Positions 1 through 36,222 of a stretch of DNA of 44,952 nucleotides are shown one piece after another. The stretch lies in the IMG/VR virus record IMGVR_UViG_3300046515_000268, positions 1 to 44,952 of that record; one strand, written 5' to 3'. Source of the stretch: a virus. The position numbers and the translations under genes are program-made. Numbering within the stretch: position 1 is the stretch's first letter; every line of letters begins with the position of its first letter. The notes under the pieces were generated by a model. It saw nothing but the letters and a program-made list of their open reading frames with translations, searched no databases and was not told the origin of the DNA.

Positions 1-1416
1 ATGAAATCGACCCCTTCCGGGCTGCTTGAACAGCCCGCGCTGCAGCGCACGCTCAGCAATCGTCACATCCAGTTAATGGCCATGGGCGGTGCCATCGGCA
101 CCGGCCTGTTCATGGGCTCCGGGAAGATCATCGCGCTCTCCGGAACGTCGATCATCCTCATCTACATGATCATCGGCCTGTTCGTGTTTTTCGTCATGCG
201 CGCCATGGGCGAAATGCTTCTGTCCAACCTCAACTTCAAAACCTTCGCCGACTTCGCCGGTGCCTACCTCGGCCCGCGCGCGGCATTCTTCCTCGGCTGG
301 TCGTACTGGCTAAGCTGGAGCGTCGCGGTGATAGGCGATGCCGTCGTGGTCGGCGGATTCTTCCAGTACTGGTTCCCCGACGTCCCGGCGTGGATACCCG
401 CCGTCGGCATGCTGGCGACCCTGTTCGCGCTAAACGTACTGACCGTCAGGATGTTCGGTGAAGTGGAATTCTGGTTCGCGATCATCAAGATCATTGCCGT
501 CGTAACCCTGATCGGCGTCAGCACCGTGCTGATCGCCAGCTCCTTCGTCTCGCCCAGCGGCGTCACCGCGTCCCTGAGTCACCTGGTGGACAAACAGGCG
601 GCGTTCCCCAACGGCTTGTTCGGCTTCTTCGCCGGATTTCAAATGGCGATTTTCTCCTTCGCCGGCACCGAACTGATCGGCACCGCCGCCGCCGAAACCC
701 GCTCGCCAGAGAAGACCCTGCCCAAAGCAATCAACTCGATTCCGTTGCGGATCATCCTGTTCTACGTCCTCGCGCTGACCTGCATTATTGCCGTGACCTC
801 GTGGCAACAGGTTTCTCCAGTCAAAAGCCCGTTTGTCGAACTATTCCTCGTCGCCGGGTTTCCAGCAGCGGCCGGCATCGTCAACTTCGTCGTCCTGACC
901 TCCGCGGCCTCCTCGGCCAACAGCGGCGTGTTTTCATCAAGCCGCATGCTGTTCGGGCTGGCCAACCAAAACAACGCCCCCGGCCTATTCCGCCGACTGT
1001 CGAGCAACAGCGTGCCACTGCTGAGCCTGGCGTTCACCACACTGTTGATGCTGGTCGGCGTGCTGGTGCTGTTCATCGTGCCGGAAGTCATGACCGCGTT
1101 CACCATCGTCTCCACCGTGTCGGCGATTCTGGTGATCTTCACCTGGTCGACCATCCTCGCGTCTTACATCGCCTACCGCAAAAAGCGCCCGGATCTAAAT
1201 GCGAAGTCGGCTTACAAGATGCCGGGCGGTGTGCCGATGGCTTGGTTCTCGTTGGCGTTTTTGGGGTTTGTGCTGGGGTTGCTGGCATTGCGGCCTGACA
1301 CGCGGATTGCGCTGATGGTGATGCCGGGGTGGTTTGTTTGGTTGGCGATTGCTTATCAGCTGACGCGGTTGAGGAAGCCGAAATCTGTGGTTGAGTCGGC
1401 GGGTCAGTTTGGCTAA
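1..1416 (+). CDS. cycA: D-serine/D-alanine/glycine-type amino acid:H+ symporter (CycA-like)
   Basis: Inner-membrane permease of the amino acid-polyamine-organocation family, predicted to import small neutral amino acids with protons. The 471-aa protein is colinear with E. coli CycA (470 aa) as I remember it. The N-terminal NRHIQLMAMGGAIGTGLFMG block, the MFGEVEFWFA motif, FFAGFQ and the TSAASSANSGVFSSSRMLFG block are all in place, with about 12 hydrophobic segments along the chain. The ATG is the first base of the window, so the promoter and ribosome binding site cannot be seen. A strong terminator follows directly. It is a host gene, not part of the prophage. The exact substrate within the CycA/AnsP/GabP group is inferred from similarity. 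Confidence 0.9.
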   Translation: MKSTPSGLLEQPALQRTLSNRHIQLMAMGGAIGTGLFMGSGKIIALSGTSIILIYMIIGLFVFFVMRAMGEMLLSNLNFKTFADFAGAYLGPRAAFFLGWSYWLSWSVAVIGDAVVVGGFFQYWFPDVPAWIPAVGMLATLFALNVLTVRMFGEVEFWFAIIKIIAVVTLIGVSTVLIASSFVSPSGVTASLSHLVDKQAAFPNGLFGFFAGFQMAIFSFAGTELIGTAAAETRSPEKTLPKAINSIPLRIILFYVLALTCIIAVTSWQQVSPVKSPFVELFLVAGFPAAAGIVNFVVLTSAASSANSGVFSSSRMLFGLANQNNAPGLFRRLSSNSVPLLSLAFTTLLMLVGVLVLFIVPEVMTAFTIVSTVSAILVIFTWSTILASYIAYRKKRPDLNAKSAYKMPGGVPMAWFSLAFLGFVLGLLALRPDTRIALMVMPGWFVWLAIAYQLTRLRKPKSVVESAGQFG

Positions 1417-1429
1417 ATCTGCGAGCGAA

Positions 1430-1459
1430 AGCCGTCACCTGGAAGTGACGGCTTTTTTG
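1430..1459 (+). terminator. Intrinsic terminator of cycA
   Basis: An 8-bp perfect stem (GCCGTCAC/GTGACGGC) with a 6-nt loop is followed by six T. It lies 14 nt after the cycA stop codon. Confidence 0.9.
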
Positions 1460-1503
1460 TTATCAGTGAACGAGCATTTCATCTGCCCATGGCGGGACAG
1501 GCT

Positions 1504-1866
1504 TCACGCCTTCACCTCAACGTTATCCAACGCCTGATTCACCGCCAACTCCCCCAACATCACCACCTGCGCAATGCCCAGCGCGGTTTTGCGGTGCGAG
1601 GGGTCGAGTGCTGCGGCGAAGTTGTTGAGCATTTCGGAAGCGGAACTCAGCGTTTCACTGGCATTGGCCAATAGGGATTCCGAGTCGTACTTGGGGTTGG
1701 CGAGGTACATGCGCTCGGGCTCGTTGACGCTGGACATGATGTGGCCGGCGGGAAGGAGGTAGTGATCGAGGGCGCGCTCGGCGGCTTCGTGGAGTTTTTT
1801 GGAGTTGAGGGATTCGTAGGGGGATGCGGGATCGGTTTCTGGTGGGTTGGGCGTTACTTTGAACAT
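1504..1866 (-). CDS. DUF6124/DUF3077-type Pseudomonas protein
   Basis: A 120-aa soluble protein of unknown function. It starts MFKVTPNPPETDPASPYES and contains AAERALDHYL and a C-terminal VVMLGELAVNQALDNV segment. I recognise these as typical of a family I associate with Pseudomonas, usually annotated DUF6124 or DUF3077. The sequence looks mostly helical, with no signal peptide or membrane segment. The start has GAGG eight to nine bases upstream. The gene is convergent with cycA and has a long structured leader (1867-2110). I cannot assign a biochemical role; the family name is from memory. Confidence 0.8.
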   Translation of the reverse strand: MFKVTPNPPETDPASPYESLNSKKLHEAAERALDHYLLPAGHIMSSVNEPERMYLANPKYDSESLLANASETLSSASEMLNNFAAALDPSHRKTALGIAQVVMLGELAVNQALDNVEVKA

Positions 1867-2110
1867 AGATGGAACCTCTAGCGCGATTACTAAAAGAAGC
1901 CATCACCCACGCTACCAAACGATGGGTGGCGGCCATACGCGGGTTGGTAGACCGGTCGCACTAGAACCCGGCGCCCACGAATGGGCCCCACGCATGACCA
2001 CCATGAAATCCGAGTCCTAGGGAAGCGACTGAAATTGGTGATGCGATGCATCTAGACACGAAGCGGGCTACCAAACCCGATCACTGGTTTTCAGTGATGT
2101 GGGGACGATA
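1867..2110 (-). promoter_or_regulatory. Structured leader of the DUF6124-type gene with two competing pairings
   Basis: There is no convincing coding region here. On the transcribed (minus) strand, GTTTGGTAG occurs at 2076-2068 and again at 1920-1912. Its complement CTACCAAC lies between them at 1950-1943. The middle element can pair with only one flank at a time, an arrangement seen in bistable leaders. Another stem is visible as ATCACTG/CAGTGAT near 2080-2098. A cis-regulatory role is inference. Confidence 0.4.
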
Positions 2111-2485
2111 GAACCTGCGGGCTAGACGCACAAGCCGGGGGATTCTGTCTTAGGTGTAGGGGGAGGCGCAAGGGAGTGTAGGCTTAGGACTGCAGGAACA
2201 GGCCTCATCTAAACAAACACGTTTTTTCCGTTTGGAAAGGCTTTACGGGCACACTGATCGATCCCGGTAACGCCAATAGCACAGGAGAGCACTGCGTTCC
2301 GTTTTCAAGCGCTGTCCGTCTCTCCGATGATGGATTGGACGCAGTGACCAACTGTCCTCCAGCCCTCCTGGTTCAAACCTCCCAGGCTCGTTTCCTTGTA
2401 GCAATTTTTTAGCATGCGACGAAGTCTGCCCACCAAGGACACTACCGGTAGTATCATGGTTCTTTCATCTCAAAAGAGGCAATCC
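2111..2485. other. Intergenic region with a 12-bp palindrome
   Basis: I find no supported gene. A perfect 12-bp palindrome, ACTACCGGTAGT, lies at 2441-2452, 33 bp before the start codon of the next gene, where an operator would sit. Nothing else stands out. Confidence 0.4.
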
Positions 2486-2698
2486 ATGTCTAACGAGTAT
2501 TCGTCATCGGATGTGCTGAGGATGTATCAAAATCAACTCGGACTGGAGGCAGCCCTGATGGAGCCAACCCTTCTCATCGAGAAGCTGGGTCTGACCAAAG
2601 CTGGAGACAACATCCGTAGTGCCCTTTGGCTGATTGGCGGAAACGCGCGCCACATCAAGCAGGGATTGGCAAGGCTGAAGGGTAAGAATGAGACTTAG
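2486..2698 (+). CDS. Small conserved-looking protein, function unknown
   Basis: A 70-aa protein starting MSNEYSSSDVLRMYQNQLG, predicted to be helical, with a basic C-terminus (KQGLARLKGKNET). The frame is open further upstream, but I chose the ATG at 2486 because AAAGAGG lies six bases before it. There is no signal peptide or membrane segment. It stands alone between the host flank and the AT-rich nuclease gene, with a palindrome just upstream that could be its operator. I do not recognise the family. Confidence 0.6.
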   Translation: MSNEYSSSDVLRMYQNQLGLEAALMEPTLLIEKLGLTKAGDNIRSALWLIGGNARHIKQGLARLKGKNET

Positions 2699-3053
2699 GT
2701 CGGTTACATATCTCGACCCATACCTGCTCCCGAAATCGTCAGCAAGCTCTCGGCCATTAAATGTCACTCTGGTACAGCTCAACTGCCGTGCCGGTTGATA
2801 TAGCCCGGTACATTTGCGTCAGCGCTTCCAGCTAGAGCGGCACAACGCGCTGACTAGCCAGGCAACCTAACGAATTCTCTATAGGGACGAGATGTTGTCG
2901 CTGAGCGCTTTCCTTAGACCTGGTGAGCATATTTTTAAGAGAAATTCAAAAAACACAAAGCTTAATGATATCATCCTTCTAACCAAAGCCCGCCTTGGCG
3001 CCTTTACTTCAACCAATAAGTTTCGCAGTTTAAAATTTCGAATGGAACTCACC

Positions 3054-4238
3054 ATGAATCCACTAAGGCGCTCACTACAAAGTAGCATTCACAATCACAG
3101 ACCGCCGGAATCCGATCCTGAATTCGAAGATATTTGCCTAGATCTTTTCGAACTCATACTAAAAAACCACGATATAAAAATTTATAACAAAATAGGCCCA
3201 GCCTATATAACCTATAAAGGCAGCAAAGGAGATAAACAATATGGCTTTGACATTAAATGCAAGTCAAGCTTAGCCGTAGCCCAATGCAAGCTTGTAGACG
3301 ACTTATTCCCCAGCGACTTACAAAAAGAACTTAAAAAACTTCTTGAGTACAAAGGAATAGTATCTCATTATTTTTTCCTAATCTCGAATGACCGAGTCAA
3401 ATCCTCACTTCAAGACTGGGTAGATGAAAAAAATAGTGAAACAGAAGTGAAAATAAACGAAGACAAACGCTTTCCGGTTGAGCCCGCTGATCGTCTTCCA
3501 TGGTTTCACATCATTGGCTGGACTGAAATAAAGAATTACATATTAGAGAGTACCCTGCTCACACTTAAGTGGGGTGTCTTAGAAGGACTTACCACCAAAT
3601 ACCCTTACCTGCACGGCCTAAATACAGACAAACTTAAGCTTGCAATTAAAAACATTGCCCTAACAAGCGAGATTCCACCTTGCTCAAAAGCCATTTCAGG
3701 TTACGACAGCTTAACCAACTCGCTAAACCCTGGTGAAATATTAAAGCTTGGCTTTGAATCAAAAATCGATTTTAACACACTTAAAGGAATTTCAAACTTC
3801 ATACAGCTTTACGATGAAACCTATAATATCTCTCAGACATACAGCAACACACTAAAGAAGCTCGACTCCGAGGACACCATTATCTTCGAAGAGGGTTTAG
3901 ACCAGCTAAATACGATCTCTCGTTACTCCGCAAGAATATATGCTCTACAATACCTACGAAAAGCATACCTCGCAGCTCGCGCCCTTAACAATATATTATT
4001 TATTGATGAAGATTACTCCTACCCGGAGACTTTCACGCAGAATTACGAGGATGGTTTCGAAGAAATTCCAACCGGTTATTTGTTATTTAATTTTAGCAAT
4101 CCCACAGAAGTTAATTCCCCATGGTACATTGACCCGACAACTGTTCAACAGTCAGCCTCCATTCTTGCTACGGAATTACAAAACTTCACATTTAGCAGTT
4201 CATTTGAAGCTCCCACCGAGCTCTTAGATTTTAAATAA
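3054..4238 (+). CDS. Putative Mrr-like (PD-(D/E)XK) nuclease, candidate defence protein
   Basis: A 394-aa protein from this start. Residues about 20-85 look like an Mrr-type restriction-endonuclease fold: FEDICLDLFELI (Glu25), then YGFDIKC (Asp66), then VAQCKL (Gln77, Lys79), the E...GxD...QxK pattern. The rest, about 300 aa, is unrecognised and mostly helical, and may be a sensor or target-recognition part. The gene is strikingly AT-rich next to its neighbours, which suggests recent transfer. The frame is also open from an ATG at 2892 (448 aa, AGGGA four bases upstream); I prefer 3054 because the domain starts soon after and the extra N-terminus looks unstructured. No partner gene is adjacent. 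Anti-phage function is inferred. Confidence 0.7.
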   Translation: MNPLRRSLQSSIHNHRPPESDPEFEDICLDLFELILKNHDIKIYNKIGPAYITYKGSKGDKQYGFDIKCKSSLAVAQCKLVDDLFPSDLQKELKKLLEYKGIVSHYFFLISNDRVKSSLQDWVDEKNSETEVKINEDKRFPVEPADRLPWFHIIGWTEIKNYILESTLLTLKWGVLEGLTTKYPYLHGLNTDKLKLAIKNIALTSEIPPCSKAISGYDSLTNSLNPGEILKLGFESKIDFNTLKGISNFIQLYDETYNISQTYSNTLKKLDSEDTIIFEEGLDQLNTISRYSARIYALQYLRKAYLAARALNNILFIDEDYSYPETFTQNYEDGFEEIPTGYLLFNFSNPTEVNSPWYIDPTTVQQSASILATELQNFTFSSSFEAPTELLDFK

Positions 4239-4540
4239 ATTTTACTATCTGGAAGGTATTGTAGCCGCGTCTGTTCGGCAGTCGTCCGCGATGAGTCGTT
4301 GCCACCATCGATAATACTGTCACATCAGGATAGGGATTCGAACCCCTGCCTAAGTCCGCACAAACCGCTTCAGGCCAGTAAATCAGGAGTGAAACCCGTT
4401 AACTGATGGCATGTCGCGGCCTATTCCGGCCCACGATCTGCCCTAAATTTGCCCTAAAACAATCCGCCTCTACAGACACTCGACCATGACGCGCAGCTCC
4501 ACGATAGTGCGCAACACTGCTTCGTGAATGCCTTCGCCGA
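4239..4540. other. Gene-free stretch with a tRNA T-arm-like sequence
   Basis: No coding region is supported. On the minus strand, around 4350-4327, AGGGGTTCGAATCCCTATC reads like a tRNA T arm with the canonical TTCGAAT loop. No CCA-ended acceptor or upstream arms are present. It may be a worn integration scar or chance. An ATTTGCCCTAAA-type repeat (GCCCTAAA at 4440 and 4451) lies nearby. Confidence 0.3.
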
Positions 4541-4780
4541 TCACTGTTCGTGCTCCTGACGCTGCGCCGTGGCCGTTGCCTCGAAGGTCTTATACAAACC
4601 TTCGATACTCGCCGCGCTCAGCACCTTGACCGTCTCCAGCCCCAGTACAAGACCTTCGGCACGATCACTGGCGCGAAAAAGGTCGTCCGCCGTGTGCGCC
4701 AAGGCAATTTGGTGCAAAAGTTTCAGGGTTTGAACCTCCACCGCATTCGGCAGGTTCAATGCAGACAGTGCCTTATCCAT
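4541..4780 (-). CDS. Unknown helical protein, second gene of a coupled pair
   Basis: A 79-aa protein (starts MDKALSALNLPNAVEVQTLK) that looks entirely helical, with no membrane segment. I chose the ATG at 4780 because GAGGGG lies just upstream, and because it overlaps the end of the preceding gene by 8 bp, a sign of translational coupling. I do not recognise the family. The pair sits in the accessory region, divergent from the NACHT gene. Confidence 0.6.
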   Translation of the reverse strand: MDKALSALNLPNAVEVQTLKLLHQIALAHTADDLFRASDRAEGLVLGLETVKVLSAASIEGLYKTFEATATAQRQEHEQ

Positions 4781-5108
4781 GCTGCCCCTCGCTCGATTCG
4801 GCGCCGTTCGCCGGCGGGGCAAACCCCAGCTCGCCGGATTCGACATCGAGCAGCAGCCAGCCGCCCAGCTGTTGGTTGCAGGCGCCAACGATCAGCCCCT
4901 GGACCACCAGCCCATCTGGCAGAATCACCCGCAGCATGTTGGCGTTCTCGGGACCTTCCAGAAAACTCGCTAGTTCGACACGGGTGCAATTGGGGCCGAT
5001 CTTGCTCAAGCGCACCGGGCATTCGAGCATCGTTAATTCGGCGGGTGGACTGCCCTCGTAGCGGTCGATCACGACCACGGTGGCCAATCCCTCATAGACG
5101 TAGGACAT
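4773..5108 (-). CDS. Unknown beta-rich protein, first gene of a coupled pair
   Basis: A 111-aa protein (starts MSYVYEGLATVVVIDRYEG) with alternating hydrophobic strands such as MLRVILPDGLVVQGLIVGA and a polar C-terminal tail. No signal peptide or membrane segment is visible. The ATG at 5108 is preceded by GGGAG at good spacing; a longer open frame to 5222 lacks such support. It overlaps the next gene. The 281-bp divergent gap up to the NACHT gene should hold both promoters. No function can be assigned. Confidence 0.6.
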   Translation of the reverse strand: MSYVYEGLATVVVIDRYEGSPPAELTMLECPVRLSKIGPNCTRVELASFLEGPENANMLRVILPDGLVVQGLIVGACNQQLGGWLLLDVESGELGFAPPANGAESSEGQHG

Positions 5109-5389
5109 GAACGGTGCTCCCTGTTCGAAGAAGTGGGCCGAATGCATCGACCATAAAGTGATGGCAATGGTAGACCAGGCCGGATGGATCTGATTTCCAC
5201 GGCGCGAAAAAATGGCCCTCACGCTTGGGCAAGGTGTGGGGGCCGATTGAACATAGGCTGGAATTCAATGTAGGTCTACGCACAAAACCTGTTCATTTCC
5301 AAGCCCATCTCTGCTATCAATGCAGTCAATCTGAAAGTAATTGCAAATAGCCATATCACCTACCGCGATGACCAGAAGAAGGGATTTTT

Positions 5390-7633
5390 ATGCACTCATG
5401 GAAAAAATTAGAAGAGCATGTGCGCGATATTGCTGCCGTGGTATGGCGGAAACCGGCATTAGCTGACAGGATCGACGGTGTCAATTTCGATGCCGTGATT
5501 AGGCTCTCTGAAGAAGAGTTCGTAATAATCGAAATAACGGAAAACTGCTCTCTAGATAAAGTTCGCACCGACGTTGCAAAAATCGCCCCGGTCAAGTTTT
5601 CTCTTTTGGCTCAAGGAGTACTTGCGAAATCCTATATCGTCATGCGGGATGAACCAACCCAAGGAATGATTGATGTGGGCAAGTCCCACAAAATCAACGT
5701 AGTTTCTTTGAAAACCTTTTCTGTACTTGCATTTGACTACCCTAGCTATGTAAACCTGAGGAATAACAGAGCTTTTGGAAGCGCGATTGATCCAAGCACT
5801 GGAGATCCAGATAAGAATGATTACATCCCGGTCAACTATGTAGATGAAACCGAAAGGAAGATACTCGACGTCCATGCTGTCAGTGAGCGATTAAAAAGAG
5901 GTGAACACATTGTATTACTGGGCGATTATGGAACCGGTAAAAGTAGATGCGTCAAAGAAGCCTTTCAGTTACTTTCCGAGCAATGTATAGGCGCAGCATC
6001 TGTTGTATTTGCAATTAATCTTCGCGAGCATTGGGGTGCCGCTTCAGCTTCTGAGATCATCGCTGGGCACTTGCAGCGTCTAGGCCTTTCCGGGTTTATT
6101 GATCGAGCAATGCAATTATTATCAACCGGTCATATTTTACTTCTGCTTGATGGATTTGACGAAGTCGGATCTCAAACCTTTGGCAGCACGCAAACCAGGC
6201 GAGCATCAATACGTCGAGATGCATTACAGGGCATAAGAGAGCTTATAGAGTCGAGCAAGGCTGGCGTTCTTGTTACTGGCCGCCCCCATTACTTCAATAG
6301 CAACAAGGAGATGCTCGACAGTTTGGGAATGACTAAAGGGCGCGAACTTCCACTAATATTAAAATGCGCAGAAGAATTTAGTATTTCTGAAGCTCAGGAT
6401 TATTTGATCAACATAGGCGTGAACACTAGTGTCCCAACATGGCTACCCCGCAAACCATTAATGTTTTGGGTTCTTGCAGCTATTCAGTCATCAGAAGCAG
6501 AAAAAATACTCGGCGGTTCATCAGGAGAAATCGACTTCTGGGGCCAATTTCTGTCAACTGTATGTATACGAGAAGCAAGCTTCCACAACTCTATTGATGC
6601 AGAATATGTTCGCTTAGTACTGATCAATTTGGCAAAAATCACTAGGCTTAGTGATCGTCCACTCGGCCGATTGACGCCCGCAGATGTAAACCTTGCTTAT
6701 ACAAATGCCACCGGTGAGATCCCTGATGAGTCTGGCCAGCTGATGCTCAGCCGGCTCTGCACGTTAGGACGTATCGAACCCGAGTCTCCTGACCGTCAAT
6801 TTGTCGATCCATATATCGTCCAACTACTTTTCGCAGAATGCTTGTCAGATGACCTCGCGAATAAATCGGACGATATCCTTTCGGAGAACTGGAAGCAGCC
6901 ACTGGAAGAAATCGGCATGGTACTTTTGTCTCAGTGGATCGAAAAATTAGATCTTACTTCGAATGCGATTTCACTACTTCATCGACAATCAACACCTCAG
7001 AACCGTCAAGTAAGCGGAGAACTTGTTGCGGCAATATCACTGCTTGACGGGGACGCCTTGGATTTTCGCGGTGTGCAGATTTGGTACTCCGAAATAGCTG
7101 TAATATCCTTTGGCACTGTCAAAATGTCTAATTTACACTTCAAAAAATGCATGTTTGGCAAGGTAGAGTTTGACGCCTGCCTAATAGAAGACAGCTCCAA
7201 TCTAATCTTGAGTGATTCCGACATTTATATGGCTACGGGATTATCATCCGCCGAGGAGCGTCCTGACTGGGTGCAGAATTGCACTATTGAGCATACGGAA
7301 AATGTGTCTAACTCTGCACGAATTAAAGCCAGCAATTTACCCCCTGCGCAAAAGCTTTTCCTTTCAGTAATCCAAAAAATATTCTTCCAGCGAGGGGGTG
7401 GTCGAAAAGCCTCTTCACTCTATAAGGGTGGTTTTGGTCAACCTTATGATCGCAAAGTAATAGATGAAATCTTGGCAATTTTGGTAAACGAAGGATACGT
7501 ACAAAAAAGTAAAGATGGGTCTGGCTTTATATACAATCCAAAACGCGAATACTCACCGAGGATGAAAACGATAAAAGATCAACTCTCGTTGAGCAAGGAT
7601 GAGCTTTGGTTGCGAATGGCGAAAATGGGGTAG
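5390..7633 (+). CDS. NACHT-domain STAND ATPase with nuclease-like N-terminus, candidate anti-phage protein
   Basis: A 747-aa protein. Residues 1-120 resemble a restriction-endonuclease fold (GVNFDAVIR with Asp34; VIIEITE with Glu48), but the usual lysine of E-x-K is Thr50, so catalysis is uncertain. The NACHT ATPase follows: Walker A GDYGTGKS (178-185), Walker B ILLLLDGFDE (249-258) and a VTGRP sensor (295-299). Residues about 545-610 are pentapeptide-like (DFRGV, KKCMFGKVEFDAC). A winged-helix-like C-terminus follows at about 655-725. This effector-NTPase-sensor order matches bacterial NLR-like defence proteins. AAGGG precedes the ATG. It is lower in GC than the prophage and flanked by an inverted repeat. 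The defence role is inferred from family and context. Confidence 0.85.
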   Translation: MHSWKKLEEHVRDIAAVVWRKPALADRIDGVNFDAVIRLSEEEFVIIEITENCSLDKVRTDVAKIAPVKFSLLAQGVLAKSYIVMRDEPTQGMIDVGKSHKINVVSLKTFSVLAFDYPSYVNLRNNRAFGSAIDPSTGDPDKNDYIPVNYVDETERKILDVHAVSERLKRGEHIVLLGDYGTGKSRCVKEAFQLLSEQCIGAASVVFAINLREHWGAASASEIIAGHLQRLGLSGFIDRAMQLLSTGHILLLLDGFDEVGSQTFGSTQTRRASIRRDALQGIRELIESSKAGVLVTGRPHYFNSNKEMLDSLGMTKGRELPLILKCAEEFSISEAQDYLINIGVNTSVPTWLPRKPLMFWVLAAIQSSEAEKILGGSSGEIDFWGQFLSTVCIREASFHNSIDAEYVRLVLINLAKITRLSDRPLGRLTPADVNLAYTNATGEIPDESGQLMLSRLCTLGRIEPESPDRQFVDPYIVQLLFAECLSDDLANKSDDILSENWKQPLEEIGMVLLSQWIEKLDLTSNAISLLHRQSTPQNRQVSGELVAAISLLDGDALDFRGVQIWYSEIAVISFGTVKMSNLHFKKCMFGKVEFDACLIEDSSNLILSDSDIYMATGLSSAEERPDWVQNCTIEHTENVSNSARIKASNLPPAQKLFLSVIQKIFFQRGGGRKASSLYKGGFGQPYDRKVIDEILAILVNEGYVQKSKDGSGFIYNPKREYSPRMKTIKDQLSLSKDELWLRMAKMG

Positions 7634-27158: not shown

Positions 27159-28309
27159 GCTCGTGCTCCTTTCGCGCTTTGCGCGGTTCCAGTTTGGGCC
27201 GCTTGGCGAGCAGCCCAAATCGAGTTGGGGTCAGGTTGTTTGGCCAGCACCTTGGGCGCTGGGTCATCCGCCAGCGGCAGACTGTTGTCGATTTCAAAGC
27301 CCTTACCGCTGGTGACAATCTTGTCGAACAAACGTGCCCGCACCGCCGGCGCATCCAGACCGGCCGCGACATACTCGGCGCTGAATTCAGGCAGCCGCGC
27401 GGCCACGCAGAGGTCGTTAATCGCCTTGGCTCGTGCCAGACCCGCCAAAACGATCTCTTCACTTTCAAGTTTGGTGGACTTGAGCAGCGGCTCGATCAGG
27501 TTGCTGATGCCCGCCGCCGCGCAGCGCTGAGTGACCATCAATGCCAACTTGGCCGAGTCTACGACGGGCGGCACCGGCGGCGGATCGACAGGCTCAAGAT
27601 CCGGATCCGGTTCGGGTGCCTCGTCGAGCTGGGCCAGCAAATCAGCCGGTGCGTGCTGGAATCGTTGCAGCACCGCGCCTTGACCGAGGCACGCTTTGAC
27701 CTTGATGCCGTCGCCGACTTCGTCAGCCAGACCAAGCGCCAATGCTTCATTGGCAGTCAGCCAGGTTTCTGCATTAACCATTCGCCGCAGTTCCGCGTCG
27801 TCGATGTCGGGCGCCTTGGCCTTGTAGGCCGCAATGATCGCCTCCAACGTTTGATCCAGCACATCAGCGACCCGGCGAAAGTCCTCGGCGCCCCCGCCTG
27901 TATAGGTGTATGGGTTGTGAATCATCAACATGGCGTTCGCCGCGATGACTACGCGGTGGGCACCGCACACAGCCACACTGGCGGCACTCGCCGCCAGTGC
28001 ATCGATCCGGCCGGTGCAGCGCTCGCCCAGCCGCGACAGCGCGTTGTGCATGGCCAGCCCGTCGAACAGGTCACCGCCGATACTGTTGAACGCGGCGACC
28101 ACCGGCGACACACCGTCGTCCATGGCGCGCAGATCCTGCACGAACTGATTGGCAGTGATGCCCCACGCGCCGATCTCGCCATAGACAAAGACTTCGATCA
28201 CTCGCTCGGTGGACTCGCCGCTGGCATGAACGGCGTACCAAGTCTTGTCCTTGACCTCGACGCGTTTGCCGGCGCGGTTGTAAATACGCGGTTTCGCGCG
28301 CTTGCTCAT
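27155..28309 (-). CDS. Head maturation protease, ClpP/S49-like (lambda gpC-like), with scaffold-type C-terminus
   Basis: A 384-aa protein. Residues about 35-205 are a ClpP/SppA-type serine protease: FNSIGGDLFDGLAMHNAL forms the oxyanion region, ALAASAASVAVCGA carries the candidate serine, and LMIHNPYTYT the histidine. After a Pro/Asp-rich linker (about 230-250) the helical C-terminus (from VVDSAKLALMVTQRC) resembles a scaffolding region. It cleaves scaffold and portal in procapsids of related phages. It overlaps both the portal gene and D by 4 bp. An internal start giving a separate scaffold (like lambda Nu3) is possible but not evident. Confidence 0.92.
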   Translation of the reverse strand: MSKRAKPRIYNRAGKRVEVKDKTWYAVHASGESTERVIEVFVYGEIGAWGITANQFVQDLRAMDDGVSPVVAAFNSIGGDLFDGLAMHNALSRLGERCTGRIDALAASAASVAVCGAHRVVIAANAMLMIHNPYTYTGGGAEDFRRVADVLDQTLEAIIAAYKAKAPDIDDAELRRMVNAETWLTANEALALGLADEVGDGIKVKACLGQGAVLQRFQHAPADLLAQLDEAPEPDPDLEPVDPPPVPPVVDSAKLALMVTQRCAAAGISNLIEPLLKSTKLESEEIVLAGLARAKAINDLCVAARLPEFSAEYVAAGLDAPAVRARLFDKIVTSGKGFEIDNSLPLADDPAPKVLAKQPDPNSIWAARQAAQTGTAQSAKGARA

Positions 28310-29787
28310 GGTTGCTCCTTGTCGTCGGTGTCTTCGACGGCATCAAGGGTGTTGTAGTTGAGGCCCAATAAGGTGGCGCGTGCCAGATCAGCAGCGTTTT
28401 CCAGATCGACCGTTTCGGCGTCGTAGCCAGTGCGCAAAACCATCTCGCTGCGCGACGAAAAACCGGCTCTAACCTCCATCGCTCGCGCCTGCACGTCCTG
28501 CACCGGCTGGATGTAAGCCCAGCCTTGCGGTACCCAGCGAGTGCGAAGGTACTGGCGGCGCTTCTGTGTGTAATCGTCCAGCACCAGAACACCCGACAGC
28601 ACCGCCATGTCCATCCACGCGGCCCGCACCGGGCGGCAAAGTTGATGGACGTACACGCTGAATTGCAGTTGTTCCAGGCGGCGCCGAAACTCGTTGAGCA
28701 CCACCCGTAATGCTCGGTCATTGATTCCGCGCATGTCGCCGGTGAGGATCTCGTAAGGCGTACCGCTACCCGCCGCTGCAGCCATCAACTGCTGACGCAT
28801 GAAGTCCGGGTAGTTGTTGCCCGCATCCGGCGGTTTGGAAAATTCCACCTCTTCGCCCGGACCGAGTTCCTGCATGGTGCCGGGTTCGAGCGCGACCATC
28901 GGGGTGAAGCCGTCGCGATCCAGATCCAGCAAGGCCCCGGTGACGGGATCCCGTGGCGTCTGTCCCGACTCCGGCGCTGGCCGCTTGATGAAACCGGCGA
29001 ACAGGTTGGCCACCTCTTGGCGGAACAACACCGCGTCGTCGTAGTTGTCGAGACTGCGCAGGCGTTTGAGCACGGGCGACAATCGCGGCACACCGCGCAA
29101 CTGACCCGGCTCAACCGGTTCGAAGATGTGCAGCACCTGAGTCGCCGGCACGCGAACCAGCTGGTTGTACCCGGCGTTTAGCGAGGCCGCATCACGCGGA
29201 TGTGAGAGGTACATCCAGTACGCCACCCGCTTGCCACCAGGAGTGAACTCGATACCGGCGCGGATGACGTTGCCGTTCTTGGTGCTCTCGAATTTGTCGT
29301 GTGGCACGAATTCCGGTGCGAGGATCTGCAGCTGCAGTGGAACGGCCAAGCCTTCGTCCAGGCTGCGAGGACGCAAGCGAACAAAGCATTCACCCGATGT
29401 TTCCACCGTGCGCGCCACCAGCGCCTGCTGGCCGTAGAAGTCGGTGCGATCATCCGCGTCCGACTCATCGACCCAATCCCCCCACAGCTCCTGCAGAAGC
29501 TTGCGCAAAGCATCATCGTCGGTTGTGGGTCGAGGGGTGATGCCCGTGCCGATCAGGTTGCTAACGCGCTTGTCGATGACGTTGAAGGCATACGGGTCAT
29601 TGCGAACTGCTGCACGTGAACGCGACCGTAGGTTGCGCAGCGCCGGGGTGTTGATGCTGTTGATCCCGTTGTCGGGAGCGTCCCAGCCAGTGGAGCGGCG
29701 CCCTTCCCCAGCGCCTTCGTAGCTGGCTTTGATGTTGGACGGCAGGATAAATCCGTTACGGGTCAGCGTTGGGAACTGTCGGGCCAT
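28306..29787 (-). CDS. Portal protein (lambda gpB family)
   Basis: A 493-aa portal (lambda B is 533 aa), the dodecameric ring through which DNA enters and leaves the head. Family blocks: WDAPDNGINSINTPALRNLR, RSRAAVRNDPYAFNVIDKRV, NLIGTGITPRPTTDD, VRVPATQVLHIFEPVEPGQL and YEILTGDMRGINDRALRVVL. It is coupled upstream to the W-like joining gene (stop and start share one base) and downstream to the protease. Confidence 0.96.
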   Translation of the reverse strand: MARQFPTLTRNGFILPSNIKASYEGAGEGRRSTGWDAPDNGINSINTPALRNLRSRSRAAVRNDPYAFNVIDKRVSNLIGTGITPRPTTDDDALRKLLQELWGDWVDESDADDRTDFYGQQALVARTVETSGECFVRLRPRSLDEGLAVPLQLQILAPEFVPHDKFESTKNGNVIRAGIEFTPGGKRVAYWMYLSHPRDAASLNAGYNQLVRVPATQVLHIFEPVEPGQLRGVPRLSPVLKRLRSLDNYDDAVLFRQEVANLFAGFIKRPAPESGQTPRDPVTGALLDLDRDGFTPMVALEPGTMQELGPGEEVEFSKPPDAGNNYPDFMRQQLMAAAAGSGTPYEILTGDMRGINDRALRVVLNEFRRRLEQLQFSVYVHQLCRPVRAAWMDMAVLSGVLVLDDYTQKRRQYLRTRWVPQGWAYIQPVQDVQARAMEVRAGFSSRSEMVLRTGYDAETVDLENAADLARATLLGLNYNTLDAVEDTDDKEQP

Positions 29788-29994: not shown

Positions 29995-32019
29995 TCAGCG
30001 TCTCTTCAGGTAGCCGCTGGCTGAGCTGCGGCGTTGAGGGGGGGCTGCCGGTCGTGATTGTGTAACCGGTGCAGCGGGTGGTGGTGCGGGTTGGGCTTGG
30101 CGTACAGCAGTGGGTGCCGGCGTTTGCTCAGCATCAAGTCGCTCGCCCTGAACAGGCTTGATGCTCAAGGCGTCATCGAACAAGCCGGACTGGGCCAGGG
30201 CTTGTCGCACCCTGTCCCAATCGTGTTCCTGGTAACGGTTGATGCCGAGGTAATGCGCCATAGCGAGGCAGTACACCATCAGGTCCAGCGCTTCATTGCG
30301 CTCAGCCTTGCCCTTCACCCATTCGATGCGCTTGTGCCCGCGCACGTAGCGGACGACTTTGCGCTCGGCGACACATTGGGCGAAAAACTCGTCCGGCAGG
30401 TCGTTGGCAAAGTGCAGCGATCCCGGCCCGTCTGGGAATGGATAGCGGTTGTAGATCCAGTCTTTGGCGGTGTCAGTGCCAACGAACCACAGCTCGGCGC
30501 CGTTGCGTTCGGTCTGGCCTTTCCACGTCACGTCAACCATGGATGGGCGCTGTGCAATCACCGGCCTACCAGGCTTGCTTGCGCCCTTGATGGCGAAGAT
30601 GTTGCGCCAGCGGCGAACGCGGCAGAACTGGTAGACCTCATCTGTGTGATGACCGCCGGAGTCGACACCCACGGCGAGAATCGCTAGACCCACACCGCAG
30701 GGATGCCGGTAACGAGCCTTGAGTTTCTCGTCCAGCACCGCCCAGGTGCGTTCGTCTGCCGGGTAGCCCCAGATGATCTGGTGGTCAACAACCCACCGCT
30801 CCATGCCGACGCCGAAGCCCATCACCATCAGCTCCAGTCGGTTAGCCTGGACGTCGACGGCGCCAGTCAGCATCAGTACGCCGGTCGGCATAGCGCCGAG
30901 GGTGTAGGTTTCCAGACGCGCCCGAGCGATCAACACTTCCGCCTTGGTCTGTTCAAGCGCGCTGTCCCAAACCTTCGCCAGACGGGTGTTGTAGAACACC
31001 TGCATCAGGCTGGTATCGCCTTGTGACTGGGCTTTTTTCGCATCCTCGAACTCGACGGCGAGCGAGGCCCAATCCATCCAGCCGGTCGGCGAATACAGGG
31101 CGCTGAGATGAAACCCCACGGTCTTGCCATCGCCACGACCATGCGCGCGCCACTCACCCCGGGCGAGCATATCGCTTTTGTGGTGCTCCTCGATCAGCAC
31201 GTCGCATTCAATAGCGGCGCACTCGTAATGCACGGTGGCGAAGTCCGCGCTGTAGTGCAGCCGCTCCCACTCCAACACCTGCATATGGCCGCAGGTGGGA
31301 CACGGCACATAATAGTGACGCTGGTCGCTGGACTCGAACAGATCGGCGATCCGCGAGGCACCCTTGATCGTCGGCGAACTGGAAAAATAGATCTTGGCGT
31401 TGCGCCCGAAGTTGGTCGCCCGCGTTTCGGCCAGCCTGATGGGATCCCCCTCCTGACCGACATCGTTTTCCCAGCGGTCGACTTCGTCGCCATAGATGTA
31501 ACGTGCCGACAGCTCCGAGAGGTTGGCCGCAGAACCGGCGGTGGTCACGTACAGCGAACCACCTTCAAATTCCTTGGTGTCCATCGTATTGCGGGCATCC
31601 CGTGAGCGGCTGGTGGCCACGCGCTCACGCAGCACCGGGGTGGCCTTGATGGTTTTGCTGATCCGCCCCGAGACCCGCTTGGACAATCCAAGGCTGGGCA
31701 GCAAGGCCAGGATGTTTGAAGGCGCCATGTGGATCAGGCCACCCATCCAGTTGAGGGCAATCTGGGTTTTCATCAACTGCGAGGCCACCATGGTGACCAC
31801 GCGCCTGCAAGGGTGAGCCGGCGACAGGCAGCGCATCGGTTCGCGAGCATAAGGTGTCCGCGAGGTGCGGTACTGGCCTGGCTCTGGGGCGCCGGTGTCT
31901 CGCGGGATTCGCATGTACTCGTCGGCCCATTCATCGATCCAGAGATCGGGATCAGGACGCAGTCCACGGAAGTAATTCTCACGGTACACCTTTGCACCGT
32001 CAGAAAATTCCGTGTGCAT
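29995..32019 (-). CDS. Terminase large subunit (lambda gpA family)
   Basis: A 674-aa packaging motor and endonuclease (lambda A is 641 aa). A degenerate Walker A lies at residues 78-86 (VASQLMKTQ, after CRRVVTM), and Walker B in RYIYGDEVDRWE. The zinc-ribbon-like CPTCGHMQVLEW and nuclease-region aspartates (LTGAVDVQANRLELMVMG, AVGVDSGGHHTDEVY) follow. The C-terminus is Pro/Ala-rich and disordered. It acts with the Nu1-like subunit on cos DNA. Confidence 0.96.
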   Translation of the reverse strand: MHTEFSDGAKVYRENYFRGLRPDPDLWIDEWADEYMRIPRDTGAPEPGQYRTSRTPYAREPMRCLSPAHPCRRVVTMVASQLMKTQIALNWMGGLIHMAPSNILALLPSLGLSKRVSGRISKTIKATPVLRERVATSRSRDARNTMDTKEFEGGSLYVTTAGSAANLSELSARYIYGDEVDRWENDVGQEGDPIRLAETRATNFGRNAKIYFSSSPTIKGASRIADLFESSDQRHYYVPCPTCGHMQVLEWERLHYSADFATVHYECAAIECDVLIEEHHKSDMLARGEWRAHGRGDGKTVGFHLSALYSPTGWMDWASLAVEFEDAKKAQSQGDTSLMQVFYNTRLAKVWDSALEQTKAEVLIARARLETYTLGAMPTGVLMLTGAVDVQANRLELMVMGFGVGMERWVVDHQIIWGYPADERTWAVLDEKLKARYRHPCGVGLAILAVGVDSGGHHTDEVYQFCRVRRWRNIFAIKGASKPGRPVIAQRPSMVDVTWKGQTERNGAELWFVGTDTAKDWIYNRYPFPDGPGSLHFANDLPDEFFAQCVAERKVVRYVRGHKRIEWVKGKAERNEALDLMVYCLAMAHYLGINRYQEHDWDRVRQALAQSGLFDDALSIKPVQGERLDAEQTPAPTAVRQAQPAPPPAAPVTQSRPAAPPQRRSSASGYLKRR

Positions 32020-32023
32020 GGGT

Positions 32024-32614
32024 TTAATCCGCTATCAGAGCGTGTTCAAGATCCGCTGAAGAGAGGCGCTCGGCTTCTTCCAGCGTCCGACGAATTGTTG
32101 CCGTCAGGTGTTTTTCGATTTGCCATGGATCCGTCATCGCCGCCAAGTCATAGGACAGTTGCGGCAGCGGTCCAAACAGCTGGTCGCGCAACAAACGACC
32201 CGCGTCATAGGCACCGGTCTCTACTGCCTCCCGGGACACCAATGAGCCTTGCGCTTTGCCCAGTTCGATCTCGGCCAGTTTGGCCATGTTGTGTTCGCGC
32301 AGCGCGCGGGACTTCTGGTAGTCGGGGTGTTTGCCATCGACTGGTATGAGTTGCGGCGGCGCAGCCGTGGAAGTCGGCTCGGTCTGTATGGACAGTTGAC
32401 CGTAAACGTCACGCTGAATCCGCTCTTGCTGGTGACGTTCGGCGACTGCGGCCTTGCTTGGGTCACTGGTCTTATCGAGCAGCGCCTCAGTAGCCTCAAG
32501 ATCAATCTTGCCGTTTTCGGTAAGCACCAGCCGATCCTGGCTGGCTAATTTGGAAACATAGGATTTGGCCCACCCGCGCCGGGCCGCAAACTCCGTTTTG
32601 CTGATGATTGTCAT
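32024..32614 (-). CDS. Terminase small subunit (Nu1-like)
   Basis: A 196-aa DNA-packaging protein. The N-terminal winged helix (IISKTEFAARRGWAKSYVSK) would recognise the cosB-type site. The central helical region (YQKSRALREHNMAKLAEIEL) contacts the large subunit. Lambda Nu1 is 181 aa. The start has GGAGA nine bases upstream. Right upstream of the gene lies an array of GTTCACC repeats, a natural candidate for its binding site. Confidence 0.88.
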   Translation of the reverse strand: MTIISKTEFAARRGWAKSYVSKLASQDRLVLTENGKIDLEATEALLDKTSDPSKAAVAERHQQERIQRDVYGQLSIQTEPTSTAAPPQLIPVDGKHPDYQKSRALREHNMAKLAEIELGKAQGSLVSREAVETGAYDAGRLLRDQLFGPLPQLSYDLAAMTDPWQIEKHLTATIRRTLEEAERLSSADLEHALIAD

Positions 32615-32627
32615 GGTTAATTTCTCC

Positions 32628-32689
32628 AGTTCACCCGCGAGTTCACCTGTTCACCCCCAGTTCACCTCAGTTCACTAAGCTGGTGAACC
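32628..32689. repeat. GTTCACC repeat array, candidate packaging (cosB-like) site
   Basis: Five direct copies of GTTCAC[CT] at 32629, 32641, 32649, 32660 and 32670, four of them preceded by A, plus one inverted copy (GGTGAACC, 32682-32689), lie within 62 bp. This is immediately upstream of the small terminase gene, where lambda has cosB and its repeated gpNu1 sites. Function is inferred from position and repetition. Confidence 0.5.
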
Positions 32690-32780
32690 GCCCGCTAACA
32701 CAGTCCCGCGGGTTTCCGACCCCGTGCCACTCAGATACCCCTAGGGTCCCCGGCGGTTTTCGGGGTGCCGGGGCGGTGCA
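32690..32780. other. Possible cos cleavage region
   Basis: GC-rich and palindromic: CCCGCGGG near 32706, CCCTAGGG near 32739, and a 7-bp hairpin CCCCGGC/GCCGGGG at 32748-32773. No gene is supported. By lambda analogy cosN would lie here, on the far side of the repeat array from Nu1. The nick positions cannot be read from sequence. Confidence 0.3.
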
Positions 32781-33125
32781 TCACCCCTGCCCGCCGCTGG
32801 TTGGCGGGGCTTCACTGAGGCCCAGTCGTTTGGCAGCCCATCGTTCATACAACCCGATGGCCACATCCGCACCGGCCATCGCCGTCAGGCAACCCAACGC
32901 GCCCGCCGTCCACAACGACATCCCGGCGGCAATCATCAACATCATCGCCGTCACCCCGCAGGCAATGCAGGCACCAGACCGAAGCGCGAGCCTGCGCAGC
33001 AACGCCCAGCCCCGCGCCCCGTCCTTGTCTGCCCGCCACATCTCCCCCGATACGCCACCGACCAGAGCCAGGACGATCACTAACCAGATCGGCATTTCTG
33101 CCAGTGCTTGTTGCTCGCTTGTCAT
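32781..33125 (-). CDS. Holin (LydA/holin superfamily-like)
   Basis: A 114-aa membrane protein. Hydrophobic segments lie at about 12-27 (IWLVIVLALVGGVSGEM), 48-66 (RSGACIACGVTAMMLMIAAG) and 69-88 (LWTAGALGCLTAMAGADVAI), with a polar tail. It resembles phage holins of the LydA type that form the lesion releasing endolysin. It is the first gene after a terminator and heads the late operon, 20 kb from the endolysin. An R-type pyocin cluster, as I recall it, also keeps the holin away from other lysis genes. Confidence 0.8.
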   Translation of the reverse strand: MTSEQQALAEMPIWLVIVLALVGGVSGEMWRADKDGARGWALLRRLALRSGACIACGVTAMMLMIAAGMSLWTAGALGCLTAMAGADVAIGLYERWAAKRLGLSEAPPTSGGQG

Positions 33126-33653: not shown

Positions 33654-34013
33654 TCACGCAGCCGCCCCCATCAGCACCCAGTAGATCTGCAGATGCGCAT
33701 CATGCAAACGCTGGTAGTACGTGTCGCGGCCACAACCGCAGTGGGCATACCGCAGGCGCATATCCACATCGAGCGTGCAGTAATGCTCACGCACCACCGT
33801 CACCTGCTCTGGCGCGAGGTGCTTGGTCACGATCAGCTCAATGTCCAACGAACTCTCCAGCGGCGCCCGGAAAGCACGCCGCCCCCTGATCAGTTGCCCG
33901 TTGCTCTCCATCATCATGGCAACCATGTTTCCCCCTGCCAGCCCTCCTTTCGAATGTCCCGAGTGCAGCTCCTGCGCCCACAACCGAAGCAGCGAATCGA
34001 TCTCCTTAATCAA
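33654..34013 (-). CDS. Putative late regulator (Q/sigma-like), low certainty
   Basis: A 119-aa protein from a likely TTG start that has GAGGAG nine bases upstream and overlaps the primase stop (LIKEIDSLLRLWAQELHSG). The C-terminal part (VTKHLAPEQVTVVREHYCTL, RLRYAHCGCGRDTYYQRLHD) has the look of a helix-turn-helix similar to region 4 of sigma or phage antiterminator proteins, with extra cysteines. Its position, last before the late operon and its repeat-rich control region, fits a Q-type antiterminator. I cannot confirm the family. Confidence 0.6.
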   Translation of the reverse strand: MIKEIDSLLRLWAQELHSGHSKGGLAGGNMVAMMMESNGQLIRGRRAFRAPLESSLDIELIVTKHLAPEQVTVVREHYCTLDVDMRLRYAHCGCGRDTYYQRLHDAHLQIYWVLMGAAA

Positions 34014-36222
34014 AGCAAGGCTCCTCGAACTCCACTCGCTGCAACGCCGAGGCACCGCCCCACCCAGCCGGCTTCTTGTATGCCCAAGGGCGCTGGCCGC
34101 TCTTAGCCAACGCCGGCAACCGAACACGCCGCCAGCCCAACCGGTGCATGATCGCGCCGACGCGCATCTGCTCAGGCTTGCCCCAATGCCCAAAGTCCAA
34201 CTTCAACGCACTGGTGAGCACGTCGCTACCGGTGGTGGTCTCGCCGATCTGCGACTCCTCGAGCCAGGTCAGAATCGGACCTTCCCATTCATCCACAACG
34301 AAACGCTCGTCCTGCTCCTCGCCGAACATCGCCGCCTCATCCAGCGTCACCCACCAGAGGTCGCCCGCGTCGTAGCAGAACACCGCTTCGGCCCACAGCT
34401 GATCGCGCATCGAGCGCAACAACTCCAGATCCACCTTGGTACACGCGACCGGCCAGTAACGTCGGTTGCCGGTGGCGTCCTTCAGGTACTCATCTTGGTT
34501 GGTCGTACCAACGAAAACACACTGGCGTGGCACGTCCATCGTTCTGCGGCCGTAGCTCTCTCGGTAAGTGTCGGTGGACGCCGAAAAGAACTGCTTGGCC
34601 TTCGTACTCTCAGCCTTGTTGAAGCTGTCCAGCTCGCCCAGCTCAACGATCCACTTGCCCCGGATCGCCTGAAACCCGTCCTTGTCGCCCAGCGCAAACG
34701 GCGTGTCCATGAACCACTCGCCGCCTAGAATGCTCATCGCGGTCGACTTACCCGCGCCCTGCGCACCTTCCAGAATCATCACCGAGTCAGCCTTGCAACC
34801 GGGCTTCATCACCCGCGCCACCGCCGATAACATCCAGCGCTTGCCGACCTTGCTCGAGTAATCGGTGGCCTTCACGCCCATGACGTCCGTAAGCCAGCTT
34901 TCCAGGCGCGGCACACGATCCCACTCAAGCTTGCGCAGATACTGCCGCACTGGATGAAACGCATGGTCATGCGCAACCACACTCACCGCCTCGATCACAT
35001 GCGAGGCCTTGACGCGCAAGTTGTACTGCTGCGCGAGCCACTTCATCACCCGCACATCATCAATGTCCGCCCAATCGCCTGTGCCGCCGCCATAAGGTGC
35101 CGCACGCAGCTTCACGATCTTCGAACTGAATGCGCTGTAGCTGATCACGCCGGCCCAACGCTCATCGTTTGCCAGGATCAACTCGACATTCTGCATATGC
35201 GCGATCAACGCACCGCTTTCGCTACGGGCGAGCATGTCCTTCCAGCCACCAGCGGCCGGCGGCTTGACCACCGCCAACACCTGACGGCGCACAGCCTCCA
35301 AACCTTCCGCAACATGCAGATCGTTGAAGTCGGTCCACTTGGCTTCCCGCTCACTGGAAAAGATCGGCGCGACCACCTGGCCGCCGACAATCAACGCCGC
35401 GTTGTTGGCTTTCTCTTCACCGGGGTTCCACGCGTCGCCATTCGGCTTCGTTGTCTTCCAGTCATCGTCTCGGCAGATGATCAGCGGGCAACCGGCGAAA
35501 CGCTCGCGCATGGCCTTGCAAACCACCAGCAAATTGCCCGCATCAAACGCAACGGCCACGGTCAATGACGTGGCCATATGCAGACTTGCGCCGGTCGCGT
35601 AGCCCTCACACACCAGCACCGGCTCGCCCGGATCCGGGTGCGGCCCGATCAGATGGAAAGCGCCCTCCTTCGACATGCCGTAAGGCCAATAGGACTTGTC
35701 CCGACCGGTGTCCTCTTGCTTGGTCGGGAACACCACCTGCAGGCCGACAATCTCGTCACGCACATTGCTCATCGGCACCAGAAACGCACCGGAGCGCGGC
35801 GCATACCGAACGCCGAAGCCGACAATCTGCTTGCGATCCAGATAGTCGCTACGGCCCTTCTCCGGCATGCGCTTAAACATGCCCGCCGCCCGCTTTGCCG
35901 CACGGCGTGCCGCGTTTGCAGAGATCTCAGCCGCCCGGCGCTTGGCCTCTTCCTGTCGAGCGCGCATAACCTCGCGCTCTTCAGGCGACATCCGCCCGGC
36001 CTTGACCTTGATCTTCTGAGACTCACCCGAACGCCAGTCACCGAACGCACCGAAGATCAGCGTCTCGCCTTTCTCGGTGCGCTGCTCATGAACGACATAC
36101 CAGCCGTTCTTTTCCTTGCCCTTGTCTTGTGTCGTCTTGCAGCGGGTCAGCTTGCCGAAAACCAATGGCTGCGCAGGCTCAAGGCCATAGTCCGCGAATT
36201 GCCCCAGTACCTCATCGAGCAT
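34006..36222 (-). CDS. Primase-helicase: TOPRIM plus VapE-type superfamily 3 ATPase
   Basis: A 738-aa replication protein. The N-terminal part has a TOPRIM-like primase core (PVLVCEGYATGASLHMATSL, CPLIICRDDDW). The C-terminal half is a virulence-associated-E/SF3-type helicase: Walker A LEGAQGAGKSTAMS, Walker B GKWIVELGELDSF, then FVGTTNQDEYLKDATGNRRY. It likely starts phage DNA replication. AAAGGGG precedes the ATG. It overlaps the zinc-finger gene by 11 bp and the Q-like gene by 8 bp, within the leftward early operon driven from the cro promoter. Confidence 0.92.
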   Translation of the reverse strand: MLDEVLGQFADYGLEPAQPLVFGKLTRCKTTQDKGKEKNGWYVVHEQRTEKGETLIFGAFGDWRSGESQKIKVKAGRMSPEEREVMRARQEEAKRRAAEISANAARRAAKRAAGMFKRMPEKGRSDYLDRKQIVGFGVRYAPRSGAFLVPMSNVRDEIVGLQVVFPTKQEDTGRDKSYWPYGMSKEGAFHLIGPHPDPGEPVLVCEGYATGASLHMATSLTVAVAFDAGNLLVVCKAMRERFAGCPLIICRDDDWKTTKPNGDAWNPGEEKANNAALIVGGQVVAPIFSSEREAKWTDFNDLHVAEGLEAVRRQVLAVVKPPAAGGWKDMLARSESGALIAHMQNVELILANDERWAGVISYSAFSSKIVKLRAAPYGGGTGDWADIDDVRVMKWLAQQYNLRVKASHVIEAVSVVAHDHAFHPVRQYLRKLEWDRVPRLESWLTDVMGVKATDYSSKVGKRWMLSAVARVMKPGCKADSVMILEGAQGAGKSTAMSILGGEWFMDTPFALGDKDGFQAIRGKWIVELGELDSFNKAESTKAKQFFSASTDTYRESYGRRTMDVPRQCVFVGTTNQDEYLKDATGNRRYWPVACTKVDLELLRSMRDQLWAEAVFCYDAGDLWWVTLDEAAMFGEEQDERFVVDEWEGPILTWLEESQIGETTTGSDVLTSALKLDFGHWGKPEQMRVGAIMHRLGWRRVRLPALAKSGQRPWAYKKPAGWGGASALQRVEFEEPCFD

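Follow-up and report, generated by a model that had tools for sequence, protein, structure and literature searches.

What function a dense cluster of heptamer repeats could serve directly upstream of a small terminase gene is the question raised by the virus record IMGVR_UViG_3300046515_000268, of which positions 1 to 44,952, i.e. the whole stretch of 44,952 nucleotides, were analysed here (the window). An earlier note on this DNA had proposed the cluster as a candidate cosB-type site next to a Nu1-like gene. The gene order on the minus strand is holin – intergenic cos – terS – terL – portal: the holin gene upstream of cos (32781–33125, minus strand; PF16085, 5.3e-53) is followed across the intergenic region by terS (32024–32614, minus strand), encoding a small terminase subunit of 196 aa, by terL (29995–32019, minus strand), encoding a GpA-type large terminase subunit (PF20454, 2.9e-104; PF05876, 2.1e-83), and by the gene for a lambda-family portal (28306–29787, minus strand). 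A Pfam search with TerS gave no match at 0.01; the protein is assigned to phrog_57 (5.3e-30), the PHROG to which lambda Nu1 also belongs (1.3e-76), and the neighbour of the array is thus indeed a Nu1-like gene. The site accordingly lies where a lambda-type cos is expected, between a lysis gene and terS with a GpA-type terL thereafter. From the comparisons described below, we consider it highly probable that the array is an array-type cosB of a lambda-type cos; the repeat cluster is, in other words, very probably the site gripped by the packaging protein of a Pseudomonas phage, beside the point where the genome is cut.

In plus-strand letters, the window contains four exact copies of GTTCACC in this region (32629, 32641, 32649 and 32660), a fifth direct copy with one mismatch (GTTCACT, 32670) and an inverted copy (GGTGAAC, 32682–32688), with the whole array spanning 60 bp (32629–32688). 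The array and its inverted copy are hence as the earlier note described them, with two corrections to its five direct copies and one inverted copy in 62 bp: only four of the direct copies are exact, and the span is 60 bp. Read on the minus strand, which is the direction of the genes, the array becomes a series of head-to-tail GGTGAAC copies, the last just ahead of terS and 14 bp from its ATG. Numbered from bp 1 of the predicted genome end (see below), the minus strand carries the inverted copy GTTCACC at bp 35 (32682–32688), the first direct copy AGTGAAC (32670–32676; core GTGAAC at bp 48, the position of R3 in lambda) and GGTGAAC copies at bp 57 (32660–32666), bp 68 (32649–32655), bp 76 (32641–32647) and bp 88 (32629–32635). 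The direct cores, at bp 48, 58, 69, 77 and 89, are 8–12 bp apart, all inside the 60 bp, and deviate from a 10.5-bp phasing by at most 2.5 bp, a descriptive value given without a test against chance. Such density is found only here: over both strands of the whole window, 37 stretches of 62 bp contain four or five copies of one 7-mer, and these are consecutive (starts 32605–32641) and all lie over the array, whilst 20,000 dinucleotide shuffles of the array's 62 bp never yielded more than three copies of one 7-mer. The heptamer occurs in 14 exact copies in the whole window against 5.66 expected, with 11 as the highest value from 100 shuffles.

The predicted cosN, with the conserved core ACGGGGTCGGAAACCCGCGGGA, is located at 32704–32725 (minus strand). 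Alignment with the two ends of the lambda record was used to set bp 1 to 32722, and the register of these record ends gives a predicted 12-nt 5' cohesive end GGGTCGGAAACC at 32711–32722 (minus strand); window and lambda record ends alike exhibit ACG, 12 bases starting with GGG and then CGCGGG. Identity to lambda cosN is 15/22, and because five other sites in the window equal this value the letter match alone proves nothing; similarity to lambda cosN was therefore dropped as proof of a cosN. Two-fold symmetry at the predicted cosN is 10/16 bp, the same as in lambda and compared to a random mean of 4.1, although this is a weak criterion that 1452 of 44937 window 16-mers reach; in the P. aeruginosa phage Turba the symmetry is 2/16 in the adopted register and 10/16 only three bases off. 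Conservation was counted exclusively on loci fetched by TerS (104 loci, 24 genome and 80 viral, 99 of them usable): the first 21 bp of the core are unchanged in 87 of the 99 and show 1, 2, 3, 5 and 6 mismatches in 5, 2, 3, 1 and 1 loci, respectively. Column information from 86 distinct sequences amounts to 1.5–2.0 bits at positions -3 to +19 and -30 to -21, and to 0.2–1.2 bits at -60 to -42. Searching 71 bp of the cos region against phage DNA returned four short matches (E ≥ 0.6), all at places other than a terS, and 161 bp of the region gave no match against plasmids.

The near-invariant columns upstream of bp 1 correspond to the conserved element CCGGGGACCCT (32743–32753, minus strand), which occupies bp -31 to -21, where cosQ is found in lambda, and matches the lambda GGGTCCT in 5/7 letters, 2 bp out of register. 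Within 75 distinct 60-bp upstream stretches, GGGGACCCT ends 18–22 nt before bp 1 in 72, and in the window at 20 nt. The GC-rich palindromes next to the array, to which attention had been drawn previously, do exist (CCCTAGGG at 32739; CCCCGGC at 32748 with GCCGGGG at 32767), but they are not the conserved part of the region: in the same 75 stretches CCCTAGGG is present in 22 and the CCCCGGC arm in 6. We therefore dropped the palindromes as a conserved feature; only their overlap with the conserved GGGGACCCT gives them any relevance.

Two records of linear P. aeruginosa phages terminate within the predicted 12-nt end, which is an indirect indication: Presto stops at bp 2, and the far end of Haddon lies at bp 9. 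Past bp 9, Presto deviates from its relatives in two letters, and its record appears to be a composite. Presto and Meadow (L108, L114 = PQ533662; L112 = PQ533659) are approximately 79 kb in length, and Presto starts with a repressor and a transposase, so that it may represent a transposable phage joined to a cos phage. At its terS-side terminus (PQ571161 end, 1–30 of L105), the Haddon record folds back as an inverted repeat, which may have arisen as an artefact when the end of a molecule was sequenced.

The comparison as a whole comprised the window and 236 loci, and a TerS match was present in 223 of these 237 sequences. A cosN scan contributed at least 120 stretches selected for the core, and the class and register counts given here draw on these together with the TerS-fetched loci. 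The 189 distinct TerS/upstream pairs were sorted by four array motifs that had been chosen post hoc, after viewing the sequences: automatic typing placed 185, with 67 in class A (GGTGAAC), 94 in class B (TTGAAA), 9 in class C (GTTAAC) and 15 in class D (GTTGAC), and left 4 untyped. L134 was typed D by a looser motif and L005 typed B from further upstream, whilst L024 (no core in its 8.1-kb locus) and L104 (locus begins 55 bp ahead of its start) were left untyped. Ten of the at least 120 cosN-scan loci lack a TerS match, and cos-bearing satellites were considered and rejected as an explanation for them: nine end within 214 bp past the core, and the tenth is L140 (locus 1–6070, core at 5361, minus strand). 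In L140, endolysin-like and spanin-like frames, as read from their translation, replace terS after the cosN and array, with an integrase gene (PF00589) and an ion-channel/pentapeptide gene as neighbours; this locus may be a prophage that has suffered a deletion, a chimera or a remnant still bearing cos.

All four array types share one register (bp 48 or 49): counted from the predicted end, the first direct copy starts at bp 48 in 67/67 class A loci (as GTGAAC) and in 92/92 class B loci, at bp 48 (11) or 49 (5) in the 16 class D loci, and again at bp 48 in the single class C locus that carries the cosN core. The first site thus lies, as in a lambda-like cosB, about 50 bp from the left end (bp 48 in the window); R3 is placed at bp 50–65 in lambda and at bp 48–60 in N15 according to PMC9026076. 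The inverted copy is likewise retained, with GTTCAC near bp 35 in 65 of the 67 class A loci. In P. aeruginosa phage records, where TerL is approximately 64% identical, bp 1 is visible in five of eight (L107, L109–L112), and these show GTTAAC at bp 49 and keep the layout of the window in the form of a cosQ-like GGGGGCCCCT, GGGTGATTCGAA and GTTAAC; the rest are L106, which has an insertion, and L105 and L108, which are record ends. With GGGTGATTCGAA taken as bp 1–12, the first repeat falls at 49, and the cosQ-like element precedes bp 1 by 19 nt (20 in the window), in a register that was picked post hoc after viewing the data and has little symmetry. A P. aeruginosa cosN consisting of the 12 nt before CGCG (GAACCTCGTTCT) was discarded, as the first repeat would then fall at bp 40. 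The insertion in L106 (LPPA36, OR188719; 168–264) comprises about 96 extra bases between two GATTCGAAC copies inside the cos region; an overlap with a tRNA/att site was dropped as an explanation, with ARAGORN detecting no tRNA in the five loci scanned.

The distance to terS is not maintained in this manner. In class A, the first copy and the start codon of terS are separated by 50 to 90 bp; in class D, the ATG is located at bp 273–281 in 10 of 16 loci, and in L005 at bp 562, with the array still beside cosN in both cases. An array serving as a terS operator should instead keep its position relative to the gene. The interval in L005 contains a 114-aa reading frame (3571–3915) that splits the cosB array from terS by approximately 0.5 kb. 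Class D loci such as L123, L170 and L195 display at least three direct GTTGAC copies near cosN (bp 48–66) and an extra inverted and direct pair about 150 bp downstream (about bp 218–244), before terS, a two-part array that recalls the spaced sites of lambda.

If the array were bound by TerS, its sequence would be expected to follow the DNA-binding residues of this protein. We compared 152 distinct full-length TerS proteins, a set that leaves out L134, L005, L024, L104 and proteins shorter than 150 aa, and found that residues 15–23 never overlap between array classes (152/152): they read W[AS]KSYVSKL in class A (56/56), R[AST]PSYITWL in class B (80/80), WS[RK][AP]YVSKL in class C (6/6) and WSRQYVGKL in class D (10/10). 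These class-specific residues coincide with the predicted recognition helix KSYVSKLAS of the window, which is helix 17–25 of the structural model (terS codons 17–25; 32540–32566, minus strand). TerS proteins of classes A and B are up to 96% identical in residues 61–196 and at most 59% in residues 1–36, whilst within class A identity descends to 47% in residues 61–196 and is always 69% or more in residues 1–36. The window TerS is itself 88% identical in residues 61–196 to the class B protein of L061 and 58% to the class A protein of L008, yet exhibits the A helix and the A array. DNA identity between L234 and L173, an A/B pair, amounts to 100% over the bp 1–19 bin, 40–75% in 20-bp bins over bp 20–259 and 70–100% (mostly 85 or more) past bp 259. 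Class changes number at least nine on the tree of residues 61–196 and three on that of residues 1–36, with shuffled class labels on the former requiring a mean of 59 and a minimum of 51. Independent A/B contrasts are few (two well supported, five on all branches), a number too small for a sign test. We read these data as cosB and the TerS DNA-binding domain moving together between phages. The sequences themselves show how the region is built and conserved, that its register is fixed and that array type is linked to the TerS recognition helix; an array whose sequence tracks the TerS helix and which is anchored to cosN is what would be expected of TerS binding sites. Comparative evidence thus supports the proposal of a cosB-type site, given the first copy at bp 48/49 of the predicted cosN, as for R3 in lambda and N15, and an array type that tracks the TerS helix.

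In the AlphaFold2 model of TerS (mean pLDDT 75.9, pTM 0.32), helices at residues 6–13 and 17–25 are followed by short strands and a helix at 39–48. Together with its family, this N-terminal wHTH, with helix 2 near residues 17–24, is what would be expected of a gpNu1-like TerS; residues 17–24 are the recognition helix of lambda TerS according to PMC9026076. Residues 1–50 of the model align to BldC (6ama_A; Z 6.8, 2.5 Å, 50 residues) and to Pukovnik Xis (4j2n_A; Z 6.6, 2.4 Å, 49 residues); the BldC and Xis chains overall score Z 6.4–6.8, and values under 8 may mean just a common arrangement. Foldseek with the TerS model gave no match at E 0.001 or below, a PDB sequence search with TerS gave one match (E 0.68), which is not a terminase, and the absence of the lambda Nu1 DNA-binding domain among the fold matches listed excludes nothing. 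BldC and Xis resemble the TerS model in the fold of residues 1–50 and differ from it in being regulators or excisionases. In PMC5859096, BldC is described as occupying direct repeats in a head-to-tail manner, with a spacing of one helical turn at one site. The BldC-like alignment and the phasing of the cores at about 10.5 bp together provide the ground for considering a TerS filament on the array; the spacing of class B arrays is less regular than that of the window.

Other explanations for the array have to be weighed against these observations. A purely regulatory role, in which TerS or another regulator binds the array as an operator or upstream control element for the terS operon and packaging is not involved, would account for the location immediately before the terS start (in the window, 14 bp separate array and ATG) and for a TerS wHTH that resembles MerR-like regulators and excisionases, albeit with modest scores. 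We nevertheless regard it as improbable, since the distance is kept to cosN and not to the gene, as the 50–90 bp interval in class A and the remote start codons of class D and L005 demonstrate. Control of terS by TerS may, on the other hand, exist on top of packaging. Headful packaging from a pac-type start, with the conserved block serving as a TerS/TerL recognition region free of a fixed double cut, gains something from the weak resemblance of the cosN letters to those of lambda, and appears more improbable still: TerL is of the GpA type, the portal belongs to the lambda family, the near-invariant core lies in the cosN register and two related records (Presto and Haddon) end within the predicted end.

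Phage genomes often contain short direct repeats, and a chance or unrelated repeat, such as replication iterons, would need no connection to packaging. This explanation is barely credible here: the shuffled sequences stop at three copies, the place and register are kept in relatives, the array type tracks the TerS helix and, in case of iterons, the VapE/primase-like gene of the window is located elsewhere (34006–36222), separate from the array.

The array-type cosB remains the preferred reading, and TerS binding, the nick positions, the overhang length and the role of cosQ are what we infer from it. TerS bound to the closely spaced direct copies, which would stand in place of the IHF-bent R3-I1-R2-R1 of lambda, would anchor the GpA-type TerL over cosN, at a distance of 48 bp to the start of its predicted end; staggered nicks would generate the 12-nt 5' ends GGGTCGGAAACC, and the GGGGACCCT element would act as cosQ at the end of packaging. 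The best match to the IHF consensus in the window carries 3 mismatches, as is also the case in 305/500 shuffles, compared to 1 in lambda; 1-mismatch IHF sites are found in 53/92 class B cosB stretches, so that IHF may be used there. We tentatively suggest, with rather more doubt than conviction, that packaging starts without an IHF hairpin by means of a head-to-tail, BldC/Xis-like TerS filament on roughly helically phased heptamers that places TerL at cosN, and that cosB and the TerS DNA-binding domain form a specificity cassette that is exchanged between phages as a unit and has four or more settings. Polymerisation of TerS along direct repeats, if it occurs, could allow packaging to begin independently of IHF. 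The four array types follow one cosN plan and vary in step with a few residues of the TerS helix; they offer a natural series for examining how a small terminase distinguishes the DNA of its own phage from that of another, and the four TerS–site pairings make this recognition testable.

The literature searched contained no earlier description of this site, and its place among known cos sites can be stated by comparison. Two cosB layouts, complex and simple, are distinguished for lambda-like phages in PMC4669245. The window does not show the arrangement of the complex lambda cosB, in which an IHF site separates R3 from R2 among three R sites, and, with six copies, also departs from the simple cosB of N15 with its single critical R site; the array looks like a third layout beside these two. 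With lambda cos it shares the location between a lysis gene and terS, the 12-nt register, the ACG and CGCGGG flanks, a first TerS site located some 50 bp into the DNA, the TerS PHROG and a GpA-type TerL. It differs in having an array of five direct heptamers and one inverted in place of R3-I1-R2-R1 with IHF, and its terS ATG lies at bp 109 compared to 191 in lambda; the earlier note had already contrasted so short and dense a repeat with the three spaced R elements of lambda. N15 likewise possesses a short cosB that lacks an IHF site, with R3 at the position given above (PMC9026076), and a terS ATG at bp 89, but relies on one critical R3, whereas four or five direct copies are present in 62/67 class A loci. 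The closest parallel in logic is that of lambda and phage 21, which, as described in PMC4669245, have identical cosQ and cosN and differ in cosB and recognition helix: the array classes repeat this scheme of a shared cosN with differing cosB and helix, but with four array types on one plan and with other repeat sequences and another layout.
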